This document shows, piece after piece, positions 2,295 through 64,000 of a stretch of DNA of 64,000 bases (position 1 is the first letter of the stretch; every line of letters begins with the position of its first letter). The stretch comes from Notolepis coatsorum (Eukaryota; Chordata; Actinopteri; Aulopiformes; Paralepididae): NCBI GenBank assembly GCA_963971535.1, contig OZ020586.1, positions 75,809,703-75,873,702 of the forward strand, given 5' to 3'. Below the pieces are notes generated by a model that ran no database searches, was not told the DNA's origin, and saw only the letters and a program-made list of their open reading frames with translations. The position numbers and the translations under genes were made by a program.

Positions 2295-3763
2295 CAGTGA
2301 TGCCACTAACGCGTTACTAAGTAACGCGTTATTGTAATCTGATTACTTTTCCGCGAAAATGGTAATCTAACGCGTTAATCTTTAAAAGCCAGTAATCTAA
2401 TTGCAGTTACTTGTCCAAGTGGCTGTGCATTACTATTTCGTTACTATCTCATCATAAATTCATAATGCATGCGGAATGCAGTATTTTATTTCGTTTTCGA
2501 CAGTCAAAAATACGCTTAGAGCTGTTTACTTCTCTTTGGGAGTGACGTCACATGTCACGTTTTCAAAGCGTGTCTGAGCACGTAACCTCGCGTGTTGATC
2601 CATGCTGGTGGGCGCGGCTGTTATTGTTATTTTCAGCCTGACCTAAACTGCGCGCTAGCAGGGAGAAGCTCGCGCTCGTAACGCTTTCTTGCAGCACTGG
2701 AAGTTCACTAGTCTACTTAACGTTTGTTAAGCCGGGTGAAAAAAACATTCACTTTGCGGAGGAAACAAAATACTGTCTACCGCATATGGAATATACAGCA
2801 GCTGCACAGCACGACCATCGACTTCTACAGGACTCGGAGCTGCACCACCAGCCAAACAGTATGTTCCACCTTTCAGTTAAACATATTTTGCATTGCACTA
2901 TTCCATGAACATGGAACACCATACTGCAGTATGTAGGTTGTCAGTAGCACACTGACAACACTGCAGTATATATATTCCCTCCCCGCCGTATATATATTTC
3001 CCTCCCACCCACCCACCCCCTCCTAATGTACAGTCCCCTCCCCATCATATGTATATACTCTGTCATGATCTAGGGGTAACAGTACTGTATATTTGAATAC
3101 CGTTTATGTCACAAATGTATCAGTACTAAATACCTATATGTCCCTATGCCATAAATGTCATGTATGTTGTGTATGTCATAAATGTCTATATGAATTGAAA
3201 ATGGGGGACCCTGATGGAAACAAGACAAACGTCTTTCTCTGGTCTGCATCCCCTTAACAATTGTGTGTATTGAGCCGTACTGTATTGTACCCATTCTGCA
3301 ATCTGTTAAATAAAGTTTTCATTCATTCATTCATTCATTCATTCATTCATTCATTCATTCATTCATTCATTCATTCATTCATTCATTCACACAATAATAA
3401 ATAATAATAACGTAGAACCATATCTGAATGGGGCAGGCCTCAAAGGTAGGCTACATATCAGCCTACATGTGGTGTTATTGACCATTTATCTTTTGTGAAA
3501 TCTATAGATCTATAGATAGCAAGATAGGCATACCTGCCCTATTAGTACATTTTACTCAAATTGAGTACATTTTACTAAATTTTTTTTGTCATTCTTATGT
3601 TGTGGCAGCAGCAGGGGGGACGACTTCGTAACCTAGTTACTTTCAAAGTAACTAAGTTACTCTGATAATCAAGTAATCAGTAAAGTAACTAAGATTACTT
3701 TTTAAAGGAGTAATCAGTAATCAGTAATCATATTACTTTTACAAGTAATCTGTGGCATCACTG
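2295..3763. mobile_element. Nonautonomous hAT-type transposon with 8-bp TSD
   Basis: The element begins CAGTGATGCCAC and ends GTGGCATCACTG, a perfect 12-bp terminal inverted repeat. It is flanked by the identical 8-bp duplication ATCATTAA at 2287-2294 and 3764-3771. An 8-bp TSD and CAG...CTG ends are hAT hallmarks. Subterminal regions are full of GTAACT/AGTTAC motifs, as in many fish hAT elements. The interior has no recognisable transposase, so it would need a transposase supplied in trans. A LINE 3' end was inserted into it later. Confidence 0.92.
2955..3388 (+). mobile_element. 5'-truncated LINE 3' end with (ATTC)n tail
   Basis: Matches in reverse the 3' region of the LINE at 62258-63889. 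Shared features are the pyrimidine-rich tract, the repeated TATGTC/ATGACAT stretch and the stretch ending AATCTGTTAAATAAAG. It finishes in about 18 copies of ATTC at 3316-3388. It lies wholly inside the hAT element, so it is the younger insertion. Confidence 0.85.
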
Positions 3764-5872: not shown

Positions 5873-6286
5873 AAACAGAAGTTGAAAGATTTAGATTTAC
5901 TGTGGGTTTAATTTTTTAATAAAAAAACTATACTCAAAAAATCTTGTCACCAATTTTCATGTCACTACCGAAACACAGGAGTTTTAGTCCCTTGGCTGAG
6001 CCTGGTTTTTAGCCACACGCCTGCATTTTTGACCAGGCAGTGACACTGCCTTCCTGTCCCTCATGGCTGCATGGTAAGTAGCTAAATCCCATAATTTTGA
6101 AATAAATGTGTTCCAAAGTCTGAAAATCGGTGTGTAACTTTAAGAATTGTCACCACAGAACACATTATTCTCTTCAATTAAGTAAACTTTTTGGGGTTTC
6201 ATGCGGAATATTATGTTTTTATGTGTGTACACCTCTTCAAAGATGTGTATGCTAGCCATGTGCTTGCTAGCATTCTTTAGTAAGTT
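5873..6286. other. Noncoding flank, repeated at 11.5 and 13.4 kb
   Basis: About 70 bases ending GTGTAACTTTAAGAAT recur at about 11620-11685. The stretch around GTAAACTTTTTGGGGTTT recurs at 13391-13445. This suggests that the locus holding the gene fragment was locally duplicated before the DIRS-like element inserted at 6290. Confidence 0.55.
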
Positions 6287-6289
6287 AAC

Positions 6290-6620
6290 GTAAGGTTATG
6301 TATATAACCAAGTTCTGTGAATTATGGCGACGCTCAGCATCATCTGCACTGTACTTCACTTCGTGCACGTGCACTGAATAAAAAATTCCACCATGTACCT
6401 TTACATCCCAACATTCGTCTGGCCACACCCCCATCCGCTTACCTTCATAAGCAGGTGTGTGGTCACCTACTCGCCTCCTTCCCAAACTTTCACCACAAGG
6501 CAAGATCAAGGGCCGCAGCGGCGTCTGATGCTGAGCGTCGCCATAATTCACAGAACTTGGTTATATACATAACCTTACGTTCTGTTTCATTATGGCTTTC
6601 GCTCAGCATCATCTGCACAA
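6290..6620 (-). repeat. 3' inverted terminal repeat plus internal complementary region of DIRS-like copy A
   Basis: The outer tip at 6290-6350 reappears inverted at 6525-6579, so the two can pair into a long stem. The next 40 bases match the opposite (5') tip of the element in reverse. In DIRS elements this region templates closure of a circular DNA intermediate. Confidence 0.82.
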
Positions 6621-7776
6621 GAGGAGCTGAGCGGGAGCCATAGCTCGACAAATGTACCCCGCTGAGGCCCCCCACAACCATCAGACCGGGGAGGACCGAG
6701 CCCCCCCGACCCTCCCTAATGGAGGATACCCTCCCTATTGGAGGCTTACGGGAGGGAGACGGATCCGACCGTGCGAAGAGGAACTCAAGCAACTCAACGC
6801 ACAGGGTGAGCAGACCGTGGCTTGACCCCACGACTACACACACGCACAACCCGCATGCCACCAGGGAACGAACGGAAGGAACAAACCTCGTTACTGCCCC
6901 CAAAATCACGGGGTCAAGAGCAAACCCAACCCCGTGGCAAGGCTGTAGCAGCAGAGCGCGAAGGAAGACCCAGACCCACTGAAGGGACTGGATCCCCTGG
7001 AAAATGGGGCCCGGAGAGGTCAATGACGCCAGGCATCAAGACCCCACCAGGCGGTCACTTAGTGACACCGCCCCCCACATCGCCAGCGTATTCGGATAAG
7101 GCCCCTCCAAGAGCGGGCCCTTTCCCCCCAATAGCACACCGCCTGGCACACTGACCCTGCAGAACAAGCAGTCAGCATGGCCGTAAGCACTCAAAAAAGT
7201 TCAACCAACGGAAGCAGGCAGCACACCGGGGAAACCAGGCAGCAGGCTGTAACCTGAGCCTGGAGCACTGCGGACGAGACAGGCGCCAAAGGAGTCAACT
7301 GAAAACAGCCCCCCCGGCGGAAGGGGCGTATGCTGGCGTCGTTGATCACCATGACAAAGCCTCCATTAAAAAAAACCCACCCAGAGGGGTCGAGGCAGAG
7401 AAGGCTGACACGATTGGCAGACGTCATGAACGTGCAGGGGCACACTCAACCGGGTAACCCGGGAGTTGACTCTGCTCCAACACACCAGGGAATCAACCAC
7501 CCTCTCGGTACACAGACGGTGGTTGTTCCTATAACCCCTCAAGAAAAAACTCCAAAACACACCTGCGGGTATACACTGGCTATACCGCAGTACAAGTGTT
7601 TCAGTTTCCAAAAAAGGGTTATTCCAGGCCTACGGGTCGACGAAACATTACTTCGGACCGGGCCCGGCGGCTCGGGAAGCACACAGGGTTACCAGAGGAG
7701 GTCCAAAAGACCACCCCCAACAGCCCCCTCTTCGCCACGCGTGAGAGAGGAGCGAAAAGAATGGAGAACCAGCCCT

Positions 7777-7896
7777 AAGCTCACTGCACTTGGTATTCCC
7801 AGGCGGTCTCCCAACCAAGTACTAACCAGAACCGAACCTGCTTAGCTTCTGAGATCGGACGAGATCGGGCGTGTACAGGTTGGTATGGCCGTAAGC
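7777..7896 (-). rRNA. 5S rRNA-like sequence inside DIRS-like copy A (probable pseudogene)
   Basis: On the minus strand exactly 120 bases read as vertebrate 5S rRNA from GCTTACGGCCATACCAACCT to ...GTGCAGTGAGCTT. The internal promoter is well kept: box A AAGCTAAGCAGG, and box C TTGGGAGACCGCCTGG with one difference from the usual GATGGGAGACC. A TTTT run, a possible pol III terminator, lies about 20 bases past the 3' end (plus strand 7754-7757). Known 5S genes lie in tandem arrays; this one sits alone inside a mobile element and is shared with copy B at the same relative place. Sequence changes across the molecule make ribosomal use doubtful. Pol III activity cannot be judged from sequence. Confidence 0.88.
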
Positions 7897-8109
7897 CATT
7901 ACGATAGTGCAGAGTACAACATGTACCCAACAAAGGGTCTCCATAACGCCTAACCCTGTGACACCCGGGCCGACCCGGCATTTTTCCCCCTGAAAAAAGC
8001 ACAAGTCCCTCAGGGTACCAGAACAGCAGATCTGCATCCCCGGCGGACAACGGGTTAACTGACCTGGACCAGCGCAACATGCCCACTCCAGAAGAGGGGG
8101 TAGGTATGC

Positions 8110-11100
8110 GTGTCGATCTAAAACATGAAAAGAGGGCGCCACCCAGACGGTCCCATTTGGACCGCCTCAGTGGCCCACCCCAAGGGCGTGAGACCCCTCT
8201 ACCTATGTTCTGATCTATTCCGTTAACATTCCCCAGATATGAACGAGAATTCATTGAGACAACCTAGTAAACTGGCGCTCGGAAGAGACAAAACTCCATC
8301 CCAGTTGCCCTATAAAAACGCTGTTTTAATAACGAGCAACCAAGGCGCACTTAGCCCCTGCGTGATTCTTAACAGAAACACCCCGAGCCAGCACTATGTA
8401 CGCGTCAAGACCCAAACACATCAATGGATAGTCTAGCAAGACACCAAACATTGTTCCTCCAAGTCGCCTGGGAGAACGACACGGAGCCGTCGTGCTTCAT
8501 GTTCCTTCCTCTTTTTATTTAAAAAAGAAAGAAACACAGACTGACATGAATCCCACGTGACGCAGCTGAGGGTAAAAATTGTTTACATTTTTACATCCCA
8601 CCACCCTCGCCACAGGGAGGAGACGGAAATCCCCAGAGAGACTTCCCACGCGAGCTGTATAGATTGAAAAGAATATATTGCAACATTGAGCTATGTAACA
8701 CTTGGGTTAGGGCTCTCCGAGGAGGAGGCACTGAACCAATACACACTCAATAATCGAATTGAATCGAATACACACACGATAGAGCAGAACTCCTTTTTGA
8801 AGTTCTACTCACCTTGACAATCTGAGGAGGAGGCTCTGAAACTCTGAGGAGGCTCCCTCACAGGGAAGGAGAGTCCGAACTCACAGAAGGCACTTCTCCC
8901 TGAGGAGGAGCTTCGTGAGGAGGAGCTCTGACAACTCCCTGAAACAGATCCATAACATGGACCTGAACAACCCACGGAAGTCTTACCAACAGAGACGCGC
9001 TCAGTGACGTACTCTATGGCAGGGGAATTTCCACGGTGCACACGCCCAATCTTCCAGGGCGTGGGACCAGGAACCCCCCCCCCCCCTCTTACCCTGTAAC
9101 GTGCCGAACAGCAACGTGACAGGAACCTTGAAGGACAGGAGGTTTTAACCCCTGACCAATCAGAAAAGTGGAGGAAAGGATTACCAGTTCACCCCTTTAC
9201 GACCCCACACCCATGATACGATGTAATGACAAGTAGAGCATGACACAGTCATAGCCTGCTACATGAAGCATCGAACAGCCTCACATAGCTCATGTGCTAA
9301 CCTGCTATCTGATTTTTACTAAGGAAAAAACACAGAACAGAGAGGGCCCCTTAAGAGCCCCGGTACCAGACTTACACGTGTGCTTCTGTGGGCCAAACCT
9401 AAGCCAGTTGTAGATCACAAGACACACACAACCCTTCTTCTTAACAAAAAATGGCAAAGTACACTCTTACAGAGGAACGCCGTTTTTCATAACGAGAGAC
9501 TACAGAATCCTCGATTATGTATTGGCCACAGGCCTTGCTAAGCACACATGATAAGTGACCAAACAATATTTTCTTTAGGAAAAAATAGTTTCTCAAGCGG
9601 AAAGCACAACCCCAGCAATTAAGCTGAGGGTTACATCGTATCCCCACAAACACAGTGACACAATATATTGTAACCAACATGTCTGAGAGGAGGGGGGGAA
9701 GCCCCAGGGAAACCGGGGGGACACCCCTCTTATCTTACCCTTGATACGACCAAGGCGAACAGGCACCTCTGTTAATGTGTGAACATACTGTTCATTGTCA
9801 TCACAGGCTGAGAAAAAGATTCATTCCTCAATCACATGTCACTAAGCATAGCTTTACAGGTTTAATTAACCCTCTTAGTTGTGAGTTCACCCACGGTACA
9901 AGTACAACGTTACATGAACACACATGTTCTCATCACAACCAAACCAGTTCATTTTTACACACGTAAAAAACAACGAAGATTCACTGCAGAGAGAAGCTAT
10001 ACCAGCGACAAGACAATTCACACACAACACGCGTCGTATCCTCAATGTATTGCAGCAACACATGTTTTGGAAACATCGTTATTACAAAACATTTAGAAGG
10101 GAAGAAAAGAAGAAGTGTTTAAAGTCCGGTCGGGACTCCTACCTTCACCCAGAACGCAGGCTGAAAGAACCGCAACACAGGTTAACGGGACACCGAGTTG
10201 AACCCAGCACCTCCTGCGCCGGTGACAAGGGTATGTCCGCAACGCCACCCAGCCGCCGTTCTCCATGTTGACGAAGTCCTCGCTGGCACTGGCAACCGGG
10301 TGTAGGGTCGGCTAACATCCTCTGTCAAAGATGACGTCGTAGTCAGAGTGTTTTAAGGCATGTTATAGTCACAGTATCGTATCAACAGTGTAGCATTAAG
10401 CTAACAGCCATCCGACTGATAGCAACAAGCTAACGTTTACTAGCCTGGTAAACACAGCGAGCTAGCGCCGCAGCTAACAGCTGACTGGCTAACACAGTAG
10501 GCCACAACTAGCACGCCAGCTAAGCAGCTATCACCTGAACTGTACACAACGACATAACAAGCCACACTTCAGACAGGCCGCTGTCCAAGTCCCTCCCCAT
10601 CCTTAAGAGGGAAAAGAAAAAGAATGTCAAACACAGTTTTCAACGGTGATCCAGACATACAGCGGGGCCAGCACAATTCCCATTTCGGGCTGCAGCCGAC
10701 TTTGAGCATGGAACTCCCGATAAAGAAGATCCTATGCCCACATTTCCTCGTTAGGGTGTACTTTCATTTTTATGTGAAAGATGGGGCCTGCACGTGACAG
10801 AGAAGCATCCGCTCGAGAAACCTGGGTTCACCAGGTCCTGGTCGCGGCCCACTAGATTGACCATCATGGGCGTCAGACCAAGATCCTCCGACCGCCGTTT
10901 AAGCCGAGCAGAGGACCCCAGTCTGGAGTCGGCGTTTCGTAAAATTGTCAGCTAACCCCCACAGCATCAACAACAACCAGAGCTCGCAAGCAAAACAGTA
11001 CGTACCCCACCCTGGAAACAACCGCTTCTCACAACAGTCGGTGCTTCCCACAGTCCAGCTGTATGGCCGCAGGGCCAAACCCATCCAGCCGCAGCAAGGA

Positions 11101-11329
11101 GGACTGTAGATGGGGAGCATGTCAGCGGCGTGAGCTCCTAATACGAAAAAGCCGTTGAAGGTCAGAATGATCATCATCTTCCAGACACTCCAGTGACGAA
11201 GACAATATCGCCGTATTTTCTCGAAAATAGTGAGAGAGAAAATAAAGATATGATGTCAACGTATCTTCCCGTTCTTTTGTTTTCCAACTTTCTTCTACTA
11301 ACAACCTCGTCAAGTGGGGATTTACCGAA
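8110..11329 (-). other. Interior of DIRS-like copy A, no coding match
   Basis: This 3.2 kb has no recognised protein. A serine-rich open frame at 9041-8805 and a stop-free 89-codon frame next to the 5' repeat (11443-11174) have no motif I know. A GTGAGT-type splice donor is visible on the minus strand near 8810. The segment has no counterpart in copy B, which begins only at 31956. Confidence 0.45.
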
Positions 11330-11523
11330 GGCACTTCCTTGTGGTGAAAGTGAAGAAGGAAGCGAGTAGGTTACCACACACCTGCTTATGAAGGTAAGCG
11401 GATGGGGGTGTGGCCAGACGAATGTTGGGATGTAAAGGTACATGGTGGAATTTTTTATTCAGCGCACGTGCACGAAGTGAAGTACAGTGCAGATGATGCT
11501 GAGCGAAAGCCATAATGAAACAG
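11330..11523 (-). repeat. 5' inverted terminal repeat of DIRS-like copy A
   Basis: Reverse complement of about 6310-6490 with few differences, including CACCTGCTTATGAAGG and the CACGTGCACGAAGTG stretch. It ends at the GTT/AAC junction at 11524-11526. Confidence 0.85.
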
Positions 11524-11526
11524 AAC

Positions 11527-11684
11527 CAGAATTGTCACTACCGAAACAGTCACTACCAAAACAAATGGTAATGTTTCGGTAGTGATCTGATAATTTCGGT
11601 AGTGACTAAATGGAATGGTAAGTCCCATCATTTTGAAATAAATGTGTTTTCCAAGTTTGAAAATCAGTGTGTAACTTTAAGAAT
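11527..11684. repeat. Small inverted repeats with CACTACCGAAAC motif
   Basis: GTCACTACCGAAACAG and its inverse TTTCGGTAGTGA occur several times within about 70 bases and could fold as hairpins. The same motif stands at 5956. The remainder up to 11684 repeats sequence from about 6085-6155. Confidence 0.6.
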
Positions 11685-12331
11685 AGGCCACACAAAGTTT
11701 TCCCCGGACAGTTTCTTTGGGCTTCTCAAGCAGCGTTTCAGAAAGACCAAGGTGAACACTCTTGATGAGATTGCAGCAGTCGTAAGGGACAGCTCAGTGG
11801 CTGGAATCAACATACCACAGCTAGTGGGAAAGGAAGGTGGCACTGTAATCGTGCAGTCCTACAACTGGCAGGAACATCTGGGGCCTTACTTCAAGCCACT
11901 GCCACAGATCAAGCAGTACCAGCACTTTAGGTGGGTGTGGTCACTGTGTGTTGTGTATTTACTGTAATTAATTATTCACACTTTAGTGCAAAGAATGTCA
12001 TTGGTAAATGATACAAATGCATTGATATTGTTATGTGCCCTGTACTAACGTTTCACTTTATTATTGCAGCTTTGATTCCAAGGAACCTGGTGTGGTTGTG
12101 GCAAAGATGTCTATTGATGGCGCTGAAACCAGATTCCAGCTGCTCCGTGACGTCCGTGTCCTGCCGCCTATAGATGGACTTCCTGTGCTGCCACCACCGG
12201 GACTGGACTCTGCAAGACAACACTATCTGTTCCACAAGATCAGAGAGTTCTGTGATGAGGAAGCCCAGGACGTAACATGCCCGGCACCACCAGCCAAAAT
12301 ATCCAGCGGCGGTTCAAAAAGACCACGGTGA
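11685..12331 (+). pseudogene. 3' fragment of a two-exon gene (GHTKF-type multicopy protein)
   Basis: Two plus-strand exons join across a 139-bp intron with clean signals: donor AG|GTGGGT at 11930/11931 and acceptor TATTGCAG at 12062-12069. Exon one runs from a probable acceptor (ATAG) near 11685 and encodes GHTKFSPDSFFGLLKQRFRK-type sequence followed by WQEHLGPYFKPLPQIKQYQHF. Exon two (12070-12331) ends in a lysine/arginine-rich tail, GGSKRPR, and a stop. An AATAAA follows at about 12409. The pattern resembles the C-terminal part of large multicopy fish and echinoderm proteins with a transposase-like (DUF7869-type) core, from memory and unverified. The upstream core is absent, so this is a fragment; the two exons carry no internal stops. 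Confidence 0.55.
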
Positions 12332-13040
12332 TCATCTGGAGAGGCCATCAGAACATTGAACATTGACTTTAGCATGTCTATTTTTATCTCGTGTTATTTT
12401 AAATGCTAATAAAATCTTGAAACTTGATTTTGTCTCTTGTTTATTATCAGGGTCCCTTTCACTACCACACTACAGAAGGTTAACCCTTTCACTACCACAC
12501 TACAGAAGGTTAACCTTTCACTACCACACTACAGAAGGTTAACCTTTCACTACCACACTACAGAAGGTTAACCCTTTCACTACCACACTACAGAAGGTTA
12601 ACCTTTCACTACCAGACTACAGAAGGTTAACCTAGTTGTTGTGTCTTTCACTACCACACTACATGTATTTACATCTAAATGCTTCTGGAGAGGCCATCAG
12701 AACATTGAACATTGACTTTAGCATGTCTATTTTTATCTCGTGTTATTTTAAATGCTAATAAAATCTTGAAACTTGATTTTGTCTCTTGTTTATTATCAGG
12801 GTCCCTTTCACTACCACACTACAGAAGGTTAACCTTTCACTACCAGACTACAGAAGGTTAACCTAGTTGTTGTGTCTTTCACTACCACACTACATGTATT
12901 TACATCTAAATGCTTCTGGAGAGGCCATCAGAACATTGAACATTGACTTTAGCATGTCTATTTTTATCTCGTGTTATTTTAAATGCTAATAAAATCTTGA
13001 AACTTGATTAAGTTTCTTGTTTATTATCAGGGTCCCTTTC
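12332..13040 (+). repeat. Triplicated 3' UTR with three poly(A) signals
   Basis: The block from GGAGAGGCCATCAGAACATT to the AATAAAATCTTGAAACTTGAT end occurs three times (about 12338-12430, 12688-12780 and 12914-13010). A minisatellite with the core CTTTCACTACCACACTACAG lies in the spacers (12454-12660 and 12803-12890). The 3' end of the adjacent gene fragment has thus been tandemly duplicated, giving three consecutive poly(A) signals. Confidence 0.88.
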
Positions 13041-25180: not shown

Positions 25181-25770
25181 CCCTTCTTGCTTCTCTCTGT
25201 CTGCAACTCTACCTCATCCATTGTAAAGGACCCCTTGAGAATCGTATGGGTTAGGGATACATGTTGGGAATATGTATAAACATGTCTAGGCAATATCCTT
25301 TGTAATTTACTCAATAATATTCAGACATTAGTATGCCTTTAAATGACGTGTGGAATTTTACTGGAAATTCAATGTAGCCGTAGGCCTACACAAAATATTA
25401 TGTCCCTATGGGCGCACCGTAGATCAGGAAAAATGGAAACGCCCGTTTAAAATTACAAAGTCCATTTCCACAGTTTTCTTTGCTCTCGCAATGTTTATGT
25501 CACACGGTTAAGTTTCACTTTCGATTTTAGAGAGGTTGTAATGAGTTTGACCTTCTTTGATTGACAAGCAATTAGCTTGTTAGATTTCCAGAGAGATAGT
25601 ATAGACCAATCAATCGGAAGCACAAGGGCATGTCACGCCTCCCAGTGCACAGTATTTCTGTCCCACGTAGCCCCTGCACTCATGCTGGAAGAAGCCCTAT
25701 TCTGCCACCGCGCACTATGGCGCCTATTTCATCAACTAGTGGTCAACAACTCCATTGGACACTTTCACTA
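25181..25770. other. Noncoding stretch, nothing recognised
   Basis: No open frame of note, no inverted termini and no tandem structure were seen before the CACTACC minisatellite. Confidence 0.4.
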
Positions 25771-25926
25771 GCACAACAGAAGGTTAACCCTTTCACTACC
25801 ACACTACAGAAGGTTAACCCTTTCACTACCACACTACAGCAGGTTAACCCTTTCACCACCACACTACAGAATGGTTAACCCTTTCACTGTGACACTACAG
25901 AAGGTTAACCCTTTCACTACCACTAA
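25771..25926. repeat. 30-bp minisatellite, CACTACCACACTACAG core
   Basis: About five copies of a 30-bp unit that also holds GAAGGTTAACCCTTT. The same unit fills the 3' UTR repeats at 12454-12660 and 12803-12890. Confidence 0.92.
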
Positions 25927-26926
25927 CCGGTCACTACAACCACGGTCTCTACAACCACAGTCACTACAGCCACGGTCACTACGGCCACGGTCTCTACAGC
26001 CACGGTCACTACAGCCACGGTCACTACAGCCACGGTCACTACGGCCACGGTCACTACGGCCAGGGTCACTACGGCCACGGTCACTACGGCCACGGTCACT
26101 ACGGCCACGGTCACTACAGCCACGGTCACTACGGCCACGGTCACTACGGCCACGGTCACTACAGCCACGGTCACTACGGCCACGGTCACTACGGCCACGG
26201 TCACTACGGCCACGGTCACTACAGCCACGGTCACTACGGCCACGGTCACTACAGCCACGGTCACTACGGCCACGGTCACTACGGCCACGGTCACTACGGC
26301 CACGGTCACTACAGCCACGGTCACTACGACCACGGTCACTACAGCCACGGTCTCCATGGCCACGGTCACTACAACCACGGTCACTACAGCCACGGTCACT
26401 ACGGCCACGGTCTCTACGACCACGGTCACTACAGCCACGGTCTCCATGGCCACGGTCAATACAACCACGGTCACTACGGCCACGGTCACTACGACCACGG
26501 TCACTACAACCACGGTCACTACAGCCACGGTCACTACGACCACGGTCAATACAACCACGGTCACTACAGCCACGGTCAATACAACCACGGTCACTACGGC
26601 CACGGTCACTACGACCACGGTCACTACAACCACGGTCACTACAGCCACGGTCACTACAGCCACGGTCACTACAGCCACGGTCACTACGACCACGGTCACT
26701 ACAGCCACGGTCACTACGACCACGGTCACTACAACCACGGTCACTACAACCACGGTCACTACGGCCACGGTCACTACGGCCACGGTCACTACGGCCACGG
26801 TCACTACGGCCACGGTCACTACGGCCACGGTCTCTACGGCCACGGTCACTACGGCCACGGTCACCGCCCCACGGTCACTACGACCACTGTCACTACAGCC
26901 ACGGTCACTATGACCACGGTCGTGGC
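25927..26926. repeat. 1-kb minisatellite of a 15-bp unit
   Basis: About 66 copies of a 15-bp unit, TCACTACGGCCACGG, varying mainly at two positions (ACGGCC/ACAGCC/ACGACC/ACAACC). Because 15 is divisible by three, several frames on both strands stay open for hundreds of codons (SLRPR, TTVTT and VVTVA repeats). These are repeat translations, not genes. Confidence 0.96.
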
Positions 26927-31955: not shown

Positions 31956-33718
31956 CGCTGGTCCAGGTCAGTTAACCCGTTGTCCGCCGGGGATGCAGAT
32001 CTGCTGTTCTGGTACCCTGAGGGACTTGGGCTTTTTCCAGGGGGAAAAATGCCAGGTCGGTCCGGGTGTCACGGGGTTAGGCGCTATGGAGACCCTTGTT
32101 GGATACATTGTACTCTGCACTGTCGTAATGGCTTACGGCCATGCCAACCTGTACACGCCCGATCTCGTCAGATCTCGGCCGCTACGCAGGTTGGTCCTGG
32201 TTAGTACTTGGTTGGGAGACCGCCTGGGAATACCAAGTACGGGGTGCTTGGGGCTGGTTCTCCATTATTTTCGCTCTTCTCTTACGCATGGCGAAGAGGG
32301 GCCTGTTGGGGTGGTCTTTGACCTTCTCGGGGGACCCTGTGCTTCCCGTATCGCCGGGCCCGGTCCGAAGTAATGTTCCGTCGACCCGTAGGCCTGGGAT
32401 AACCTTGTTGGAAACTGAAACACTTGTCCTGCGGTAGTGTCTGCAGGTACGTTTTGGAGTTTTTCTTGAGGGGTTATGGGACCAACCACCGCATAGGGTA
32501 ACGACAGGGTGGTTGGTTCTCTGGTGTGTTGGAGCTGAGTCAACTCCCGGGTTACCCGGTTGAGTGTGCCCCTGCACGTTCATGACGTCTGCCAATCGTG
32601 TCAGCCTTCACTGCCTCATACCCGCTGGGTTTTTTAAGGGAGGCTTTGTCATGGTGATCAACAATGCCAGTATACGCCCCTTCCGCCGGGGCGGCTGTTT
32701 TCAGCTGACCCCTCTGGCGCCTGTCTCGTCCGCAGTGCTCCAGGCTCGGGTTACAGCCTGTTGCCTGGTTTCCCCGGTGCGCTGCCTGCTTCCGTTGGTA
32801 AGCCTTTTTTGGGTGCTTACGGCCATGCTGACTGCCTGTGCTGCAGGGTCAGTGTGCCAGGCGGTGTGCTATTGGGGGGTAAGGGCCCGCTCTTGAGAGG
32901 GGCCTTATCCGAATACGCTGGCGATGTGGGGGGCGGTGTCACTAAGTGACCACCTGGTGGGGTCTTGATGCTGGCATCATGGACCTCTCCGGGCCCCCGT
33001 TTTCCAGGGGATCCAGTCCCTTTGGTGGGTGTGGGTCTTCCTTCATGCTCCGCTGCTACGGCCTTGCCACGGGGTTGGGGTTGCTCTTGACCCCGTGATT
33101 TCTGGGGGCAGTAACGAGGTTGTTCCTTCCGTTCGTTCCCGGGTGGCATGCGAGTTGTGCGTGTGTGTAGTCGTGGGTTCAGGCCATGGTCTGCTCACCC
33201 TGTGCGTTGAGTTGCTTGAGTGCCTCTTCGCACGGTCGGGTCCGTCGCCCTCCTGTGATCCTCCAATAGGGGGGGTGCCCTCCATTAGGGGGGGTCGGGG
33301 GGGCTCGGTCCTCCCTGATCTGATGGTTGTGGGGGGCCTCAGTGGGGTGTATTTGTCGGCCGATGGCTCTCGCTCGGCCTCCCTTGTGCGGAAGTGACGC
33401 AGAGCGAGATCCATTACGGAACAGAACGATAGGTTATGACTATAACCAAGTTCTGTTAGTAATGGTGACGCTCGGCGTCCGACGCCGCTGCAGCCCTTGA
33501 TCTCACCTTGTGGTGAAAGCTTGGGAAGGAGGCGAGTAGGTGGCCACACACCTGCTTATGAGGGAAGCTGATAGGGGTGTGGTCAGACGAATATTGGGAT
33601 GTAAAGGTACATTGTGGAATTTTTATTCAGTGCGTGTGCACAAGCGAGGTACAGTGCGGAAGTGACGCAGAGCGTCACCATTACTAACAGAACTTGGTTA
33701 TAGTCATAACCTATCGTT
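31956..33718 (+). mobile_element. 5'-truncated DIRS-like element, copy B
   Basis: Matches the 3' 1.8 kb of copy A (8080-6290) in the opposite orientation, with many substitutions. The internal complementary region (about 33400-33490) and the 3' inverted repeat are present: ATAGGTTATGACTATAACC at 33438 reappears inverted at about 33690-33714. GTT lies at the 3' junction (33716-33718) and at the tip-to-tip join near 33434-33437. The 5' part is missing, with homology to copy A starting at CGCTGGTCCAGGTCAGTTAA near 31956. It contains a 5S-like sequence. Confidence 0.8.
32131..32249 (+). rRNA. 5S rRNA-like sequence inside DIRS-like copy B (pseudogene)
   Basis: Reads as 5S rRNA for 119 bases from GCTTACGGCCATGCCAACCT to GGGGTGCTT. 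Box C (TTGGGAGACCGCCTGG) is as in copy A. Box A is damaged (GGCCGCTACGCAGG instead of AAGCTAAGCAGG), so pol III recognition should be weak. A TTTT run follows about 20 bases downstream (32268-32271), as in copy A. It lies at the same place in the element as the copy A sequence. Confidence 0.85.
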
Positions 33719-43748: not shown

Positions 43749-44112
43749 TTGATAAATGAGGGCCCATGATGTCCACTCACAACAGGGAAGTGAGATGAAT
43801 CCTGCCAATTATGGCTGTATATAGAAACAGATTACCTCTGCTAGGGAGGACCATCCATACATATTCCACAGATGCAAACCTTAAAAATGACTCTAGGTCT
43901 ACCCTTATTGATCTTATTTTTGTGAATATGACAGGATTTCAGCTTGTGGGTTTTTTGACTTAGGCATAAGTGACCATTGGCCTACAGCCTGTGTAAGAAG
44001 CACGAGACTGCCAAAAACAAGACCTCACACAGTTTTAAGGAGGCATTTTTAATCTTTTAATCACCAATCATTTTTAGATGATCTTATTTTTTTTAATACT
44101 TATTTGTAACAC

Positions 44113-46518
44113 AGCAGACTACAGGACATCATTCAGAAATACTCAGAAAGAGGCATCAACATCATAATGGGAGACTTCAATGCCAAGGTAGGAAGTGACA
44201 ACAGAGGCTACGAGGAGACAATGGGAAAGCAAGGTATAGGAGAGATGAACGACAAGAGATTCGCAAACCTATGCGCCACTAACAACCTGGTCATCGGCGG
44301 AAGCATTTTCCCCCACAAAAGGATACACAAAGCTACTTGGATCTCACCGGACCTCAACACCGAAAACCAGATAGACCATGTGTGCATCACTAAGAAGTTC
44401 AGGAGGTCCCTTCAAGATGTATGTGTTAGGAGAGGAGCTGATGTTGCCTCAGACCACCACCTCCTGGTTGCCCGGCTGAAGCTGAAATTAAAGAAAAACT
44501 GGACAGGGGAGAAGAATCGGAGACAAACATTCAACACAGCACTTCTGAGAGACCCAACCAAGTTAGAAGAATACAAACTCACACTTAGGAACAAGTTTCA
44601 AGCCCTGCAAGAGTTGATGGAAGAAGAGGAGGAAAACATCGACAAGAAGTGGAAGTCTGTGAAGGAAGCAGTAAGTACAACGTACAAAGAAGTACTGGGC
44701 CCGAAGAAACACAACCACAAGGAGTGGATATCAGCAGAGTCATTGAGGAAGATAGAGGAGAGGAAAGGGAAGAAGGCACTAATCAACAACAGTCGAACAA
44801 GAGCCGAAAAGGTCAAAGCACAAAACCAGTACACAGAAGCCACAAAAGGGGTTAAGAAAAGCATCAAGGCAGACAAGAAGGACTATATAGAGAGTCTTGC
44901 GGCAGAGGCTGAAGAAGCAGCTAGACATGGACATTTGAAAGACTTATATAACACCACCAAGAAGCTGTCAGGAAAGTTTAGTAAACCAGAAAGACCAGTT
45001 AAGGACAAAGATGGACAGCCAATCATCGGAGAGGAAAGACAAAAGGAAAGATGGGTAGAACATTTTGAGGAACTGCTAAACAGACCAGCACCACAGGACC
45101 CACCAGACATCCAGCAAGCTGACAGGGATCTGCTGATAGACTGCAGCGTGCCAACAAAAGAAGAGATCCGCAAAGCCATCAAGAAGCTGAGGAACGGCAA
45201 GACTGCAGGACCCGACGGTATTCCGGCAGAAGCACTGAAGGCCGATATAGAGACGATGGTCCATCCTCTCTTCAAGAAGATATGGGAAGAAGAACATATC
45301 CCATCAGAATGGAAGGAGGGCTACCTCGTCAAAATACAGAAGAAAGGAGATCTGAGCCAATGTGCAAAATACAGAGGGATCACATTACTCTCCATCCCAG
45401 GAAAAGTATTCAACAGGATTATACTGGACAGGATGAAGGCTACGAAAAGGCTTTCGACAGCGTGAATAGAGAGACCCTCTGGAAGCTACTCAGACGCTAC
45501 GGAGTGCCAGAGAAGTACAGAAATATCATCAGGAACTCCTATGAGGGGATGACCTGCAGGGTAATTCAGGGCGGTCAACCCACCGACGCCTTCCAGCGCT
45601 GTTTGTTGTCACCATTTCTGTTCCTGCTGGCAATAGACTGGGTCATGAAGCAATCCGCGGCAGAAAAACGAAATGGCATACAATGGACATTATGGACGCA
45701 GTTAGAAGACCTCGACTTTGCATATGACCTGGCCCTTCTCTCTCACACCCAGCAGCAGATGCAGGAAAAGACCAGTACCATCGCTGACAACTCTACTCGG
45801 CTTGGGCTTAACATCCACAGAGGGAAGAGCAAGGTCATGAGAATCAATGCTGACAACACATCACCCATCATTCTGGAAGGAGAAGCGTTGGAAGAGGTAG
45901 ACAACTTCACCTACCTGGGCAGCATGGTTAACAAGCAAGGTGGAACAGATGCTGATGTGAGAGCCAGGATTGGCAAGGCCAGAGGAGCCTTTCTCCAACT
46001 AAAAAACATCTGGAGCTCAAGAGACATTTCCATCACAACCAAGATCAGGATATTTAACACCAACGTGAAGTCAGTCCTACTCTATGGCGCTGAGACCTGG
46101 AGGACCACTGTCACAACAACCAATAAACTACAAGTTTTCCTAAACACCTGTCTGCGCCGAATCCTCCAGATTCGCTGGCCTAACACCATCAGCAATAAAG
46201 ACCTGTGGCAACGAACACAACAACAGCCAGCAGAGAAAGAGATTATCCAACGGCGTTGGAGATGGATTGGCCATACACTCCGTAAACCATCCCTGAGCAT
46301 CACAAGACAATCTCTCAGGTGGAACCCCCCCCCAAGGGAAAAGAAAGAGAGGCCGACCATGAAACACCTGGCGCCGAGACTTGGAAGATGATGCCAAGAA
46401 GATGGGACACACCTGGGGCCAGCTTGAGAGGTTGGCTCAGGATCGGGATGCTTGGAGAACCCTTGTTGACAGCCTATGCCCCAAACGGGGTAAAAGGCGT
46501 AAGTAAGTAAGTAAGTAA
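44113..46518 (+). mobile_element. RTE-like LINE, truncated, with (TAAG)n tail
   Basis: 5'-truncated in the endonuclease domain (GDFNAKVGSDN at 44167) and ending in five GTAA/TAAG units at about 46498-46518. The 7-bp sequence GTAACAC flanks it (44106-44112 and 46519-46525) and separates two parts of the older LINE, so it is a likely TSD. Confidence 0.85.
44167..46391 (+). pseudogene. Endonuclease/reverse transcriptase pseudogene of RTE-like LINE
   Basis: The first frame, 44167-45465 (432 codons), covers the endonuclease end (GDFNAKVG at 2-9, IDHVCITKKFRRSLQDVCVR, SDHHLLVARLK) and the RT start ([31 protein letters not shown]). A second frame, overlapping from 45282 to 46391, resumes with [17 protein letters not shown] and continues to the C-terminal [12 protein letters not shown]. 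Where they meet (about 45432-45442) the fingers segment between DRMK and YEKAFDS is deleted, causing the frame change. A second deletion removes the VRQG of motif B (about 45590). Motif C reads FAYD instead of FADD. The enzyme is therefore inactive. C-terminal residues continue in another frame after 46391. Confidence 0.85.
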
Positions 46519-47635: not shown

Positions 47636-48073
47636 TATTCCACATTAGGAACAAATGTACTGCAGTAGTAAGAAAATCTAAAACTGATAACTATCTGGAG
47701 TTGGTTACAAACTCATACTCTATTCTGGCAACATTTTGGAGTGCGGTGAATAGGAACAAAATAAAATCATCTAATTCTTTACCCTCTCATATTAAAGTTG
47801 ATAACTGTGCAGAGTGCAATTTGTGTTGCCTTCAAAAGGCATTTTGCAGAGGCTGGTAATTTATTTAATAGGAACTATAATGGACCTTTTCCTGCTGATT
47901 CTGATTGTTTGTACCCTGTGGGCGTCACTTCATATTTCTCATTTCAACCCTTTTACACAGTCAGCTGTATTTAATGCTTTGCAATCAATAGATTCAAAGT
48001 GTTCTACAGGTGAGGATAACTTAGAGTCTTTTTTTATTAAGTTGGCTGCACCAGTTATCGCTGAGCAGATAAC

Positions 48074-48420
48074 GAAAGGTTATCCTATAATCTAGTTATA
48101 TGAATACTGGCAGAGCGTCTCGCTCTTTGCCATTATGAGATAACTCTTATCTCCTAGCACCTACTGTGCTAATGAACAAACAATTTGCACTCATGCACGT
48201 GACCAGGCCACGCCCCCGGGTCCTACTATATGACACCGGACATGGTCACACTCTACCTTCCTCGGAAAAAAAGTTTCCAACATTGAAAACCCAACCAAGG
48301 GACCTCAGGGCGCCAAGAGCGAGACGCTCTGCCAGTATTCATATAACTAGGTTATGGGATAACCTTTCGTTATATATCATACTGGTCATCGCGTCTCGCT
48401 CTTTGCCATTATGAGATATG
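48074..48420 (-). repeat. 3' inverted repeat and internal complementary region of DIRS copy C
   Basis: GGCAGAGCGTCTCGCTCTTT at about 48109 is mirrored at about 48314-48333, and the following GTTATATATCATACTGG...CTCTTTGCC mirrors the opposite tip at 54040-54086. The layout equals that of copies A and B although the sequence differs. Confidence 0.85.
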
Positions 48421-48535
48421 GGACAGAGCGGACGCGTGACCCGACAAGTGTACCCCCTGAGGGCCCATAAGCCCCACCACCAGGGAGGAGGGGAGTCCCG
48501 TCCACCCGCCCATCCTAACGAAGGGGGGGAGGCAG

Positions 48536-49078
48536 TCAACTACAACCAAAGTGCGAAAAAGGGGGAACCAGGCACCCCTGAACGCACAGCACAGGCGGGA
48601 CCACGTGTGACACAGCACCCCGTGGCACACACCCACACACCCCTGCTAGCCCACCGACTGGCGGGACGCAGGAGAGGTCCCAGACCTCAGAACCGCCTGG
48701 GAGACAGAACCCCCAGTCATGTCCATGAGGTAAAATGTAACGAAGGGACCCGGGGAGGACCAGGAGGCCGCAGCACAGATGTCCTCCACCGAAGCCCCCC
48801 CTAACAAGGCGGCAGAAGCCGCCACTCCATATTCTTGGCACGAAGACTGGATTAGGCCTCAGAGTCGCACCGCTATTGGCCCGAATAGACAGGCACTTAG
48901 GCCGCACCAAGAGAGCACACAGCTCACCCACGCGCTTAGCGGAGGTGATGGCCAGCAGGAACGCAGTCTTGAAAGACAGCTGCTCCAATGGCGCCTGCTC
49001 AAGAGGCTCAAACGGGGCCTCCGACAACCGGCCCAGGACCAGTTGGAGGTCCCAACTCGGAGACAGAGAACGGTCCAC
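48536..49078 (-). pseudogene. DIRS tyrosine recombinase, internally deleted
   Basis: Residues 9-58 read WDLQLVLGRLSEAPFEPLEQ and SFKTAFLLAITSAKRVGELCALLV, the N-terminal part of the DIRS recombinase catalytic domain, including the first conserved arginine (in AKRVGEL). After about residue 85 the expected middle of the domain, with its His and second Arg, is missing. In another frame at about 48790-48725 the end segment around the catalytic tyrosine (a DICAAASW...FY pattern) can be read. A deletion of perhaps 100-150 codons has therefore joined the ends out of frame. No recombinase activity is expected. Confidence 0.82.
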
Positions 49079-49186
49079 CGGCTTGAGACGCCGAGCGCCA
49101 AGCAGGAAACGTTTCCATGCCCCAGTCCGGCACGATCAGGATCAAAGTCCTGCGCTACCAATGTATCCGCTCCAACAGCTGAGCTA

Positions 49187-49738
49187 TCAGGTGTATGGGG
49201 GGGAATGCGTACAGAATCCCGGGCGGCCATGGATACATCGAGAAGGCATCCACCCCCAGGGGAGGATTGTCCCCCCGACTGACCAAGAACCATAAGGGGC
49301 ACTGGTGAGACTGTCTGCTCGCAAACAGATCCACGTGGCTTCCCCGAACCGGTCCCAGACCCGTCTGACTATGTCTGGACGTAGTCCCCACTCGTCGGGA
49401 TTAGGACCGCCCCGCGGCATCACATCCGCGCCCACATTCTCCTTGCCAGGGATGTGGAGCGCCCTCAGGCTGCGCAGATTGAGAGACGCCCATAGCCAGA
49501 GCTCGACCGCCGCCCGGTGCAGACAGATGGAGCATACTCCACCCTGTCTGTTGACATACAACGCTGTCGTCGTGTTGTCCGTCCTGACCAACACGTGCTC
49601 GCCCACCACCAGGTGGCCGAACTGCTTGAGGACCAGAAGGACCGCCTTCAATTCCAACACATTGATATGCAGTGCAGACCGGGTAGCATTACACGTCCAG
49701 CTGCCCCCTACTGTGTTGGTCCGACACGTCCCCCCCAT
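49187..49738 (-). pseudogene. DIRS RNase H domain
   Basis: Contains INVLELKAVLLVLKQFG, VLVRTDNTTTALYVNRQGG and LRALHIPGKENVGADVMPRG, the middle and end of a retroelement RNase H with its Glu, Asp and Asn-containing motifs. The first catalytic strand (FTDASLTGWGG) lies just upstream in a different frame (49917-49708), so a frameshift near 49720 splits the domain. Confidence 0.85.
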
Positions 49739-51227
49739 CCCGTGAGGGAGGCGTCGGTGAAGACTGTGTGACGTGTGATAGCCTGCTGCCCATGGAGATC
49801 CCGCTGGTGAGGGTACCAGTCCTCCCCCAGTGGTCGAGATCCCCCAGTATTGACATGGGAACCTTCAGTCGTTTCCACTTGCCTCTCACCAGGTCTATTT
49901 TCATACTGGAAAACCACCTCTGTATCCTCCTCATGAAGAGGAGGCCAATAGGGACCACAGAGTGAGCAGATGCCATCATACCGAGTAGGCGCATCACGGA
50001 CAGCGCCGTAACCGTCCTGCCAGGACGGAGCCCCGTGTTCGCGCTGAGAATATCCACTCGCCGCCGCTCTGAGAGGGTTGCCCTCATGGGCCTTGAGCTT
50101 AGAACCAAGCCCAAGTACTCCACCTGTTGACTGGGAAGAGGAGTACTCTTCTCCCAGTTCACAGCAAAACCCAGACTGGTGAGGAATTCCACCACCAGCC
50201 TGGTATGAGAGTAATGAGACCTGGCGGCCTCCTCCGACTGGCTGAGGAGCAGAATGTCGTCAAGATAGAAAATAACTCATATCCCCCGACGACGTAGAGG
50301 CTCCAGCGCGGTCTCTACGCACTTGGTGAATGTGCGAGGGGCCAGAGAATAGCCGAACGGCAGCCTCTGGTATTCGTACGCTACACCCTGAAAGAGGAAG
50401 CAAAGGAATTTCCTGTGAGGAGGGAAGATCGGGATGTGAAAGTACGCATCCTTCAGGTCTATGGAGGTGAACCAGTCCCCCACTCTGACGGAGCTTATCA
50501 GGTGTTTGACCGTGAACATCCTGAACCGCCTTGTCACAATCAGCCGATTGAACGCAGACAGATCCAGAATAGGTCTGACACCTCCCGATTTCTTGGGCAC
50601 CAGAAAATACCGGGAGTAAACGCCCGTATCGTGTCCTTCTTTGAGACCACGACAATGGCTTGCTTCGCTAACAGAGATTGGATCTCGTCGGCCAGAGCTG
50701 TCACTGCTGCTGACCCTGACAACAAGGTCTGCACCAAACCTGAAAACGGAGGGTGGGGTAGCGCAAACTGCAACACAAGCCCCCGCCTCAGCGTTCTCTC
50801 CATCCACCTCGACATATGGCACTGCTGTAGCCATATGTGATGATAATCCCAAAGCGCACCCGCCGCCATTTGGCGCTGGTCCCCCAGGAACCGTAGATAG
50901 GCGGCCCGGTCCCACCCGCTGTGCATTGCCAACCCTGGACCCGCCAACCGCGCGAGCAGGGCGTCTCGTGGAGCCGGGATATCGCACCCTGACACTACCA
51001 ACGAGGCAATCGCACCCAAGGGGGGACCCCGACAGAAAGAGCGGGTTTGATACGGGGGAATCTGACACCACACTGGGTGACAAAAGCTCCCCCACAGAAC
51101 ACCTCCCCGGCATGGATTGCTGAGGAACCGTTCTACAGCTGACCATGCAAGGCGCGAGGTCCCCACACTGTCCGATAGGGTGGGTTCCTACACACCGTAG
51201 CCCTGCAGTGGTATTACTACCACCCAA
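49689..51227 (-). pseudogene. DIRS reverse transcriptase with in-frame stop before YLDD
   Basis: A single minus-strand frame runs from 51227 to 49689 with one stop, TGA, at 50279-50277. In the first 316 codons YFLVPKKSGGVRPILDL is at 207-223, FTSIDLKDAYFHIP with the motif A aspartate at 253-266, and LPFGYSLAP at 289-297. Just after the stop comes IFYLDDILLLSQ, the active-site YLDD, and then VEYLGLVLSSRPMRATLS. The N-terminal RT portion (LQFALPHPPFSG, ADEIQSLLAKQAI) is in another frame at 51166-50540, so there is also a frameshift near 50640. No active enzyme is expected. Confidence 0.9.
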
Positions 51228-52564
51228 ATCACGCGCGCCTGCCTGACACCGCCGGTCTTCCGGCCGTGGGAGGCACTAATGTGATACCCGGCCTGGCGAG
51301 GGCGAGGCTGGGGGAACTCGCGCTGCAACCCCATGGGCCTCGAGCTCCCCCGCTGACAACCTTCGTCGTTGACAGACACAACACCAGGCTCACCAAACAC
51401 AGACGCAGAATGTGTGGCGTGGGAGCCGCTTGACAGCACAGCATTCTCACGGACAGACCCAGGCCTAGCCAGCAACTGGGTGTCAGCCCCTGTCCCCATG
51501 AGAAGCGAAACGTGGGGCCGCTTGCGCTTCATTGAAGGCACGTGGCCCACAGCCAAAGGGAACAAATCAGAGCCCGTATCCCGCTGGTGTTGGGGGGGGG
51601 AGTGACCGGAGAGCGAGCTAGACACAGCTAGATGGCGAAGTCTTTTTAGGGCGTGCTCATCTAATGTAGCCGATCCCTCGGCCGCCAAGGCTGTCGGCCT
51701 TGCGATCACCTGTTTTCTTTGTGTCCAGGGTACCTCAGGCGGGGGAAACATGGCCGCTGGTTGAGGGCCTCGCCACAGTCGTTGGCGAGGCCGCGCTCTC
51801 ACCTCTGGCTGCGTGGTGCGAGGCGGTGTGGGGCCTAGGTCAAATACCACCCGCGCTCCTGCGGAAAGACCAAAGAGTCCCTCTGCGGAGAGGGGAGCCC
51901 TGAGGAGGAGAAACCTTTTCTCCTCCTCAAAGGAAGACTACTCCAACCAAAGATGCCTGTGAATAAGAGTTGACAGCATCCTGGTCCTCCCTGCGGTTAC
52001 AGCTTGCGACTGAGTTAAAAGCTCTATAACCCCAAAAACACGTGCAATGTTTTCAACGTCAGCTGACCCTACCTGACACCATTGTGGACAGAAAAGCAGT
52101 CAACTGAGCAATGACACTGGTCGCCGCTAAATTCCGTCCTGCGGCGGTATAAAATCAGCCCATACAGCCACCTGCCAGGCCGACTCGCCCTCTGGCGTTG
52201 GCTTCCGGGTGGGACACCGTTCAACCATGCCAGGGCAAAGGACCGATGCTACCTGGCCCTCAAGCCACGGCACACCTGCCTTGCGCCCTGTTGTCAGCCC
52301 ATTCACCCATAAAAGGGGTAAATAAGCCTCAGCAAAAACCCCCACATTAGACACCGATTGACCTTCAGCAATGAACCGGTTAAGAGGAGGGAAGAGTGGT
52401 GACAGCCCGCGGCGGGGAACAAAGGAACAGTGACCCAGCATCGTAGCATTAGCATTAGCCGCTCGCTCCAGGATAGCCGGGAAAACATCCAACTCAGAGT
52501 CATGACGACCATGTTTACCCAGATATCCTGCCCCTCCCGCCAATACACAACTCGGCTGTCTCAC
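51188..52564 (-). pseudogene. Region of the DIRS first ORF (Gag-like), degenerate
   Basis: Two minus-strand frames of 145 (52564-52127) and 220 codons (51850-51188) precede the RT. They are Pro/Arg-rich with no motif I recognise. The position before RT fits the DIRS gag-like ORF1. The second frame overlaps the RT frame only slightly. Confidence 0.5.
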
Positions 52565-52913
52565 GGGACAACGAGCAGTATCACAAATGCTAGCATTAAT
52601 GCCTGGCAGCGCAGACCCTACCTGTGCGCGACCTAGCCCGACAGCTAGCCGCCGTGCGACGTCCCTCGATCCGCTGTCACGAGATGAGGGAACCCCAGGA
52701 CAGGTCCGATGCGTTTGTTAGGATGTGCCGAGAAGATTCCAGGGTCTGGTGAACCTCCGGCGAAAACCCAACATTGTGTAATTTCTCTCTGTATTTCATA
52801 ACAACTAGTTCATGGAGTGCACTGCAACGTCCATGTTGGAAACAAAAAAAGAGGAAGGTAGAGTGTGACCATGTCCGGTGTCATATAGTAGGACCCGGGG
52901 ACGTGGCCTGGTC

Positions 52914-53969
52914 GCGTGTATGCTTTCCGCAACGGAGTTCAGTTTCCGGGTTCCTCTGATTGGCCGCGACCCCCGCGTGACGCTGCCGCTCTGCTGTGTG
53001 TTGTGTTGCAGCGCGCACCAGAGCGGCAGAGGTCCCTGCCTTCCTCAATTTATACGCATGGAAGTATTGACTACACCGTAACGAATCATTAAAAATATAT
53101 ACCGTTAACTGGAATATGTTGTGCCTTTACACATATGTTGGATTATGTAATTGGTTTGTCATGACAAACAAATAAAAAAATCACGATTTACCCGCTGGCT
53201 ACAACACACTCAGAGGTAGGAATACTAAGCTCCCCCTTAAGCTCCAGGAGAGAGGCTGAAAACCCGCAGTTCTTGCCCGACTGATGGGAGCCGAATCCCC
53301 GGATCCGATTTGTCTGATGAATACCCCCAAAACATGGAGGTCCCGAATGCATGGAAGTATTGATTGCGCCGTAACGAAGAATTAAAAAAAGATACCGTTA
53401 ACTGGAATATGTTGTGCCTTTACACATATGTTGGATTATGTAATTGGTTTGTCATGACGAACAAATAAAATATCGCATCGCCGGCTGTCTCTGGCTTGCT
53501 CCAGCGGACACCAGAGCTCAGCCATGCCGCTCGCGGCAGCATATTCTTGCCGCTGGCTGAGCTCTGGTGTCCGCTGGAGCAAGCCAGAGACAGCCGGCGA
53601 TGCGATATTAGAACTGCGGGTTTTCAGCATCTCTCCTGGAGCTTAAGGGGGAGCTTAGTATTCCTGCCTCTGAGTGTGTTGTAGCCAGCGGGTAAATCGC
53701 GATTTTTTTATTTGTTTGTCATGACAAACCAATTACATAATCCAACATATGTGTAAAGGCACAACATATTCCAGTTAACGGTATATTTTTTTAATGATTT
53801 GTTACGGTGTAGTCAATACTTCCATGCGTATAAATTGAGGAAGGCAGGGACCTCTGCCGCTCTGGTGCGCGCTGCAACACAACACACAGCAGAGCGGCAG
53901 CATCATGTGGGGGTCGCGGCCAATCAGAGGAACCCGGAAACCAAACTCCGTTGCGGAAAGCATACACGC
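52914..53969. mobile_element. Foldback element with 9-bp TSD (Mutator-like)
   Basis: Begins GCGTGTATGCTTTCCGCAAC and ends with its exact inverse. The arms are about 350 bp each (52914-53262 and about 53611-53969) with few differences. The 9-bp GGCCTGGTC flanks it at 52905-52913 and 53970-53978. Long terminal inverted repeats with a 9-bp duplication are typical of Mutator/foldback elements. The middle contains a direct copy of part of one arm (53345-53465 versus 53057-53180) and a perfect 55-bp hairpin. No protein is encoded. It inserted into the 5' inverted repeat of DIRS copy C. Confidence 0.9.
53470..53608. repeat. Perfect 55-bp palindromic hairpin
   Basis: 53470-53524 is the exact reverse complement of 53554-53608, with a 29-base loop. 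It lies at the centre of the foldback element. Confidence 0.95.
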
Positions 53970-54086
53970 GGCCTGGTCACGTGCATGAGTGCAAATTGTT
54001 TGTTCATGAGCACAGTAGGTGCTAGGAGATAAGAGTTATCTCATAACGGCAAAGAGCGAGACGCGATGACCAGTATGATATATAAC

Positions 54087-63889: not shown

Positions 63890-64000
63890 CGTAGTACCCT
63901 TGAATGAGTGCTCCTGCCAGAGTCTTCAGGGTATTCTTGTTTACCAGAGAGGAGATCTGGTACAAGAATCTAGTTCGTTGGTTGACTTCTTTTTATTACA
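63890..64000 (-). mobile_element. LINE copy G, internal RT segment
   Basis: Plus-strand 63890-64000 repeats 63170-63285 nearly exactly (TTGGTTGACTTCTTTTTATT versus TTGGTTGACTTTTTTTATTA). On the minus strand it encodes RFLYQISSLVNKNTLKTLAG and then runs straight into the motif A region of copy F. It continues past the window edge. Confidence 0.88.

Follow-up and report, generated by a model that had tools for sequence, protein, structure and literature searches.

How did a complete 5S rRNA sequence come to lie inside a DIRS-like retroelement, and does it do anything for the element that carries it? The question arises from a window of Notolepis coatsorum DNA, by which we mean the whole stretch of 64,000 nt that was analysed (GCA_963971535.1, OZ020586.1:75,809,703-75,873,702, forward strand). 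A preliminary description had reported 5S-like sequences in two copies, A and B, and both were recovered by Rfam: in copy A at 7896-7778 (-) (RF00001, 90.9 bits, E 2.9e-18) and in copy B at 32131-32248 (+) (RF00001, 67.7 bits, E 4.1e-12), in each case over model positions 1-120. The window has no other Rfam match at gathering level, of whatever family, and the E values of these two rule out chance similarity to 5S. The reading that we favour, and consider probable, is that 5S RNA was captured once by template switching in reverse transcription and then spread as cargo.

DIRS1-like architecture of the elements in the window

Copy A is a complete nonautonomous DIRS1-like element of 5240 bp at 6287-11526 (-), with GTT at both termini. 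The extent given earlier, 6290-8110, turned out to be just the right third of it. Its left inverted terminal repeat lies at 11337-11526 (-) and matches 6500-6312 in inverted orientation at 93.2%, and the outer 40 bp of this repeat (11487-11526) are the exact complement of 6579-6618. The right inverted terminal repeat, together with the right extension, occupies 6287-6500 (-), the inner limit being approximate. An internal complementary region (ICR) was found at 6526-6618 (-). Its right arm (6526-6581, 56 nt) is 100% complementary to 6287-6342 and its left arm (6579-6618, 40 nt) is 100% complementary to 11487-11526; the two arms overlap on AAC, the 3-bp circular junction, which is complementary to the GTT termini.

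Inverted terminal repeats, a left and a right ICR at the 3′ end, a 3-bp junction complementary to the termini and a length of ~5-6 kb are shared with DIRS1-like elements as described in the available text of PMC3266345, which also tabulates TnDIRS1a of the fish Tetraodon among them. Compared with the elements in that text, copy A differs in carrying 5S and in having no detected RT, RNase H or recombinase coding (PMC3266345). As in DIRS1-like elements, visual inspection of the 12 bases on either side of copy A and of 11 full-length copies from the same genome showed no target-site duplication of the element. In the published DIRS model, as far as the available part of PMC5633606 sets it out, the ICR is the template for the element ends. 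In all 12 of our elements the left end had 0-1 mismatches in 40 positions to the element's own ICR, whereas up to 12 differences (mean 6.0) separated the left ends of different elements. At the right end, 11 of the 12 had 0-2 mismatches in 56 positions to their own ICR, with up to 6 differences between copies; the exception was L025, whose right end had 20/56 mismatches.

The two flanks of copy A, 5980-6286 and 11527-11700, are alike (6083-6157 versus 11619-11694, 85.5%), and beside the element 11534-11606 is palindromic. Because of this, copy A is placed within or adjoining another repeat.

Copy B is the right part of an older, diverged copy at 31956-33718 (+), recognised by its homology to copy A; 6287-8074 aligns with 33718-31956 at 88.9% identity. 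The 5S flanks are thus homologous on both sides, as had been claimed, with an identity of 95.4% in the preceding 175 bp, 107/118 within the 5S and 88.3% in the following 171 bp. The ICR of copy B lies at 33386-33479 (+), and 33425-33479 is 98% complementary to 33664-33718. Homology to copy A begins only at 31956, and no left terminal repeat of copy B was found within the window. For the ORF that spans the copy B 5S there were 265 candidate relatives, none at E 0.001.

The captured block of copy A comprises TG (7898-7897) and 5S positions 1-120 (7896-7777) and thus occupies 7777-7898 (-); its limits follow from the empty site in the copies that lack 5S. In copy B the block is at 32129-32249 (+) and consists of TG and a 5S with a 1-base deletion. 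This deletion lies near base 63, and box A of copy B is also altered at bases 49, 50 and 55. A TTTT at 7755-7758 (-), a possible pol III terminator, stands 19 bases 3′ of the copy A 5S, close to the distance of about 20 bases noted before. The first bases of the 5S, GCTTACGGCCATGC, recur ~700 bp downstream in both copies (7175-7188 in copy A, 32815-32828 in copy B). This second GCTTACGGCCAT stretch, 700 bp off, showed no additional 5S likeness in copy A (Rfam E 5), and its occurrence may be due to chance.

A coding DIRS1-like element without 5S, element C, lies at 48071-54086 (-) and has RT, inverted terminal repeats and an ICR. Pfam identified RVT_1 at 50280-51275 and 49692-50276 and an RNase H that fell short of the curated threshold (E 0.0016), and named no recombinase. 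Its ends differ from its own ICR by 1/40 and 4/56 mismatches. The RT has close relatives in fish, e.g. turbot. Element C is 66% like copy A over 6507-6716, and its comparison with copy B gave no match (E 0.72). The left part of element C contains a large inverted duplication (52901-53273 versus 53610-53982, 96.5%). Elsewhere in the window, 25759-26921 is a tandem array with a step of ~60 bp and several open frames, part of which also matches 12454-12663. Further RT ORFs with RVT_1 and DUF6451, and with Exo_endo_phos_2 below cut-off, are present at 44110-46391 and 62708-63925 and are probably non-LTR elements.

Copies with and without the 5S block

The same genome (3.42 Gb) was searched with a 481-bp query spanning the 5S, and the best 40 of 3028 first-look candidates were scored. 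These best 40 were 97-100% identical to the query and covered the 5S in all cases. One was the window's own match; in all 39 fetched copies (39/39) Rfam found the 5S at the same place, with 84.5-103.8 bits. Around the 5S, the mean pairwise difference of copy A and these 39 best matches was 2.0%, the true spread being wider. Eleven of the 39 could be aligned to copy A end to end in one piece; the remaining copies were partial, rearranged or interrupted, and three sequences were incomplete as retrieved.

The longest stop-to-stop ORFs of the 11 full-length copies were 130-206 aa, no longer than those in 50 shuffles of copy A (mean 156, maximum 257). When 120 DIRS RT relatives and pieces of element C were used as tblastn queries, 0 matches to DIRS proteins at 1e-4 were obtained in copy A and the 39 copies, and Pfam found no DIRS protein remnants in ten pieces (nine of copy A, one of copy B). 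Many weak protein matches were taken as noise; among the matches listed, the strongest against copy A had E 8.9e-4. Because no coding for RT, RNase H or tyrosine recombinase was found, we regard the copy A family as a nonautonomous derivative with DIRS1-like structure and not as an autonomous DIRS. A search of viral contigs with one 20-base pattern gave 0 matches, and plasmids gave none.

Since the first query contained the 5S, a 5S-blind query (7100-6640) was used as well. The best 40 of its 2337 first-look candidates were taken, which are the best matches to the right part of copy A and not a random sample. Fifteen carried 5S, 20 did not, and five were undecidable. Three of the carriers were already known (copy A, L011 and L020); the other 37 comprised 12 with 5S, 20 without and five in which the site was missing or rearranged (L053, L056, L059, L071 and L074). 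L058 and L068, 5 kb from each other, may represent a local duplicate. Family members thus do not all carry 5S: it is present in all 39 copies from the 5S-spanning query but absent from 20 of the 40 in the blind sample. On this count copies without 5S outnumber the carriers, a situation that the preliminary description had listed as refuting its view, but they share one empty site.

An empty site was present in 19 of the 20 copies without 5S, in which GTAA or ATAA is directly followed by GGGGCTGG, starting with GGGG. L078 lacks 3 bases just upstream of this site, and L081, the twentieth copy, has a larger deletion there. The junctions of copy B read GTAA-TG-GCTTACGG...GTGCTT-GGGGCTGG, and those of copy A are the same except that the first G of GGGG is an A. 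The insert therefore has exact limits: it is TG plus 5S 1-120 in the sense of the element, no base was lost, and there is no target-site duplication, including the clean duplication around the 5S for which a check had been proposed. Of 18 carriers whose junctions were compared, L051 has a deleted left junction and the others share it.

A tree of the flanks (350 columns, 53 copies with 5S and 20 without, no outgroup) explained 5S presence in the 73 copies by one change of state. Support for the exact split between copies with and without 5S was 0.34, and it was 0.90 with one carrier, L054, across. Because the copies without 5S have one common empty site, we conclude that there was a single early insertion and not several separate ones. 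The shared junctions and the one change on the flank tree also bear out the earlier claim that the 5S belonged to the element before this lineage multiplied. The 5S-less sister lineage is abundant and retains the empty site.

The 5S points toward the ICR end. It also has the direction of the longest ORFs in L085, which lacks 5S, measures 5228 bp and has ends as in copy A (left end versus ICR, 6/40 mismatches). L085 has a 372-aa ORF at 530-1645, of which 1325-1645 is matched by a piece of the upstream ORF of element C (52130-52717; 37%, E 1.9e-17). This piece, in which Pfam names no gag domain, was read as gag from its position. Because it matches L085, the 5S-less lineage may keep gag-like coding. 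L086, the second 5S-less copy examined in full, has a 444-aa RT ORF with ALKBH8_N, presumably a nested LINE. Between element positions ~3950 and 5156, copy A shares 98-100% identity with L085 in each 100-bp window (97.6% in the last, partial one), but left of element position 3456 the value is 81-88%. This identity profile shows that the family exchanges parts.

Promoter sequences and substitutions in the 5S block

Instead of being mere cargo, the 5S might be a working pol III module, by analogy with Cassandra, although we consider this rather unlikely. TFIIIA and TFIIIC would bind the internal boxes, a 5S-like RNA of ~142 nt ending at TTTT would be made, and this RNA would aid expression, packaging or trafficking of the element. 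Consistent with such a module, the family form of box A is matched exactly by 47/53 copies with 5S and the box C core by 45/53, and TTTT lies no more than 30 nt from the downstream anchor in 53/53 copies with 5S versus 5/20 without. However, the TTTT and box counts follow relatedness, and relatedness alone can explain the TTTT contrast. Moreover, a transcript of 142 nt is too short to contain the whole element, the 5S-less lineage is numerous too, and among the 12 newly found carriers in the blind sample two, L079 and L080, have lost 10 and 17 bases of their 5S.

Substitution counts in copy A and the 39 copies, with copy B left out, likewise speak against a module. The 5S was slightly faster than the flanks (68/4760 versus 281/26211, p 0.036) and also faster when CpG sites were omitted (49/4120 versus 183/23391, p 0.012), partly through the sites of the clade described below; slower evolution of the 5S than of its flanks was not seen. 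A drift of the promoter boxes faster than the flanks, which the preliminary description had proposed to look for, was not observed (17/1560 versus 281/26211, p 0.90). Because most changes postdate insertion, the rate test says little on the source lineage.

A point in favour of the module comes from nine copies (L025, L026, L029, L035, L036, L037, L040, L045 and L046) that form a clade when a tree is built from the right part minus the 5S and copy B serves as outgroup. The nine were chosen by their 5S before the tree was made, and an earlier clustering had joined just seven. They differ from the rest and from copy B at 5S sites 22 and 83, the latter in box C, and five of the nine also at site 115. 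On the clade branch there are two 5S changes, and a third in part, in 119 bp, and about five fixed changes in ~1430 bp outside. Rfam scores are mostly higher: eight of the nine have 99.2-103.8 bits and the ninth 95.7, whereas the most frequent form has 98.7; among copies outside the clade, L020 has 99.8 bits and four others 99.1. The clade bases at sites 83 and 115 are presumably those of teleost 5S. At site 22, where we take teleost 5S to have G, the clade has A and does not match. A22 is also found in L065, which is absent from the clade tree and lacks A83, so site 22 is a weak mark of the clade.

These changes may be due to chance, or the 5S may be not wholly passive. Gene conversion by host 5S over a long tract is unlikely, because sites 61, 66 and 107, which we take to differ from teleost 5S, stayed as they were. 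By the Cassandra analogy, an animal retroelement of the tyrosine-recombinase type could have taken over a 5S promoter and structure and kept them in step with 5S function. We think this doubtful, and site 22 fits it less well than sites 83 and 115.

Probable capture of the 5S and comparison with known elements

The account by template switching and subsequent carriage, which we favour, would run as follows. During reverse transcription of a 5S-less DIRS1-like RNA, the polymerase would have left its template between GTAA and GGGG and switched to a 5S rRNA, copying all of it from the 3′ to the 5′ end. After the addition of two further bases (TG in the sense strand), it would have returned to the same point of the template. 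The outcome would be a one-time scarless insertion of ~122 bases. The resulting element, which has no detectable coding, would be moved by the enzymes of coding DIRS relatives, and the 5S would spread as a passenger. Template switching fits because the 5S is full-length, the joins are blunt, two extra bases are present and the direction is sense; the exact 5S ends point to RNA rather than DNA as the source. We take gain as the direction, because a loss would have had to coincide with the RNA ends to the base. The proposed switch onto a packaged small RNA has a precedent in retroviral particles that copy host pol III RNAs: according to the available text of PMC4997597, 5S rRNA occurs in MLV particles, and an experimental recombinant had acquired a patch of 7SL. 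In contrast to that experimental case (PMC4997597), the fish lineage multiplied naturally and the empty-site form is still in the genome. Against our account stand the flank tree without outgroup, the support of 0.34 for the exact split, and the misfits at the ends of L025 and L085.

The main rival for how the 5S entered is end joining at the DNA level, in which a 5S cDNA or gene fragment would have been blunt-joined into a break in a genomic copy that then became the source of the 5S-carrying lineage. Blunt joins, two filler bases and the lack of a duplication fit this as well, but exact RNA ends without loss of target bases weigh against it, the sense direction would be expected just half the time, and the family is seen to switch between templates. 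A 5S gene as donor would likely have brought spacer along, of which none was recognised. We hold such a capture, including the later role of that copy as source, to be unlikely. An ancestral 5S that later disappeared precisely from the other lineage is very improbable. Ancestry would be compatible with the lack of an outgroup in the flank tree and with the presence of 5S in the diverged copy B; a deletion would nevertheless have had to remove the whole 5S to the base plus two more bases and restore the GTAA-GGGG join in 19/20 copies. Separate insertions of a 5S-derived SINE into each copy, or chance similarity, are scarcely credible, the former being excluded, in agreement with the earlier claim, by the junction common to the carriers compared (deleted on the left in L051) and by the lack of a duplication and a tail.

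Like the plant TRIM Cassandra, as the available text of PMC10853983 presents it, the fish element is a nonautonomous retroelement with a 5S and its internal promoter. It differs in that the 5S of Cassandra lies inside LTRs, whereas the fish element is of the DIRS type, has inverted repeats, and carries a single, internal 5S (PMC10853983). Promoter use in the fish element is putative, judged from its sequence. SINE3 elements have a 5S head, a LINE-type tail and a target-site duplication. The fish insert, in contrast, is TG plus 5S only and sits mid-element, with no tail and no duplication. Common to both is a vertebrate mobile element with a 5S-derived part, as in AmnSINE1 and DeuSINE among the 5S SINEs treated in the available part of PMC5753468.

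We conclude that the lineage is real: it is nonautonomous, DIRS1-like and complete in structure, and a whole 5S rRNA was inserted into it once, leaving no scar; structure, Rfam matches and shared junctions uphold the core of the preliminary description, a nonautonomous DIRS-like element that carries 5S. No DIRS with 5S was described in the parts of the open-licence PMC literature covered by our search. The combination of DIRS and 5S is new as a combination, and the kind of element was already known.

The filled and empty forms, with nearly identical right parts, provide a natural paired test of whether the 5S benefits the element. That a 5S was patched in from end to end suggests an encounter between DIRS reverse transcription and free 5S rRNA, which is relevant to RNA packaging and copying in these little-studied elements. 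The lineage would also be an animal parallel to plant Cassandra, within a different order of retroelements.
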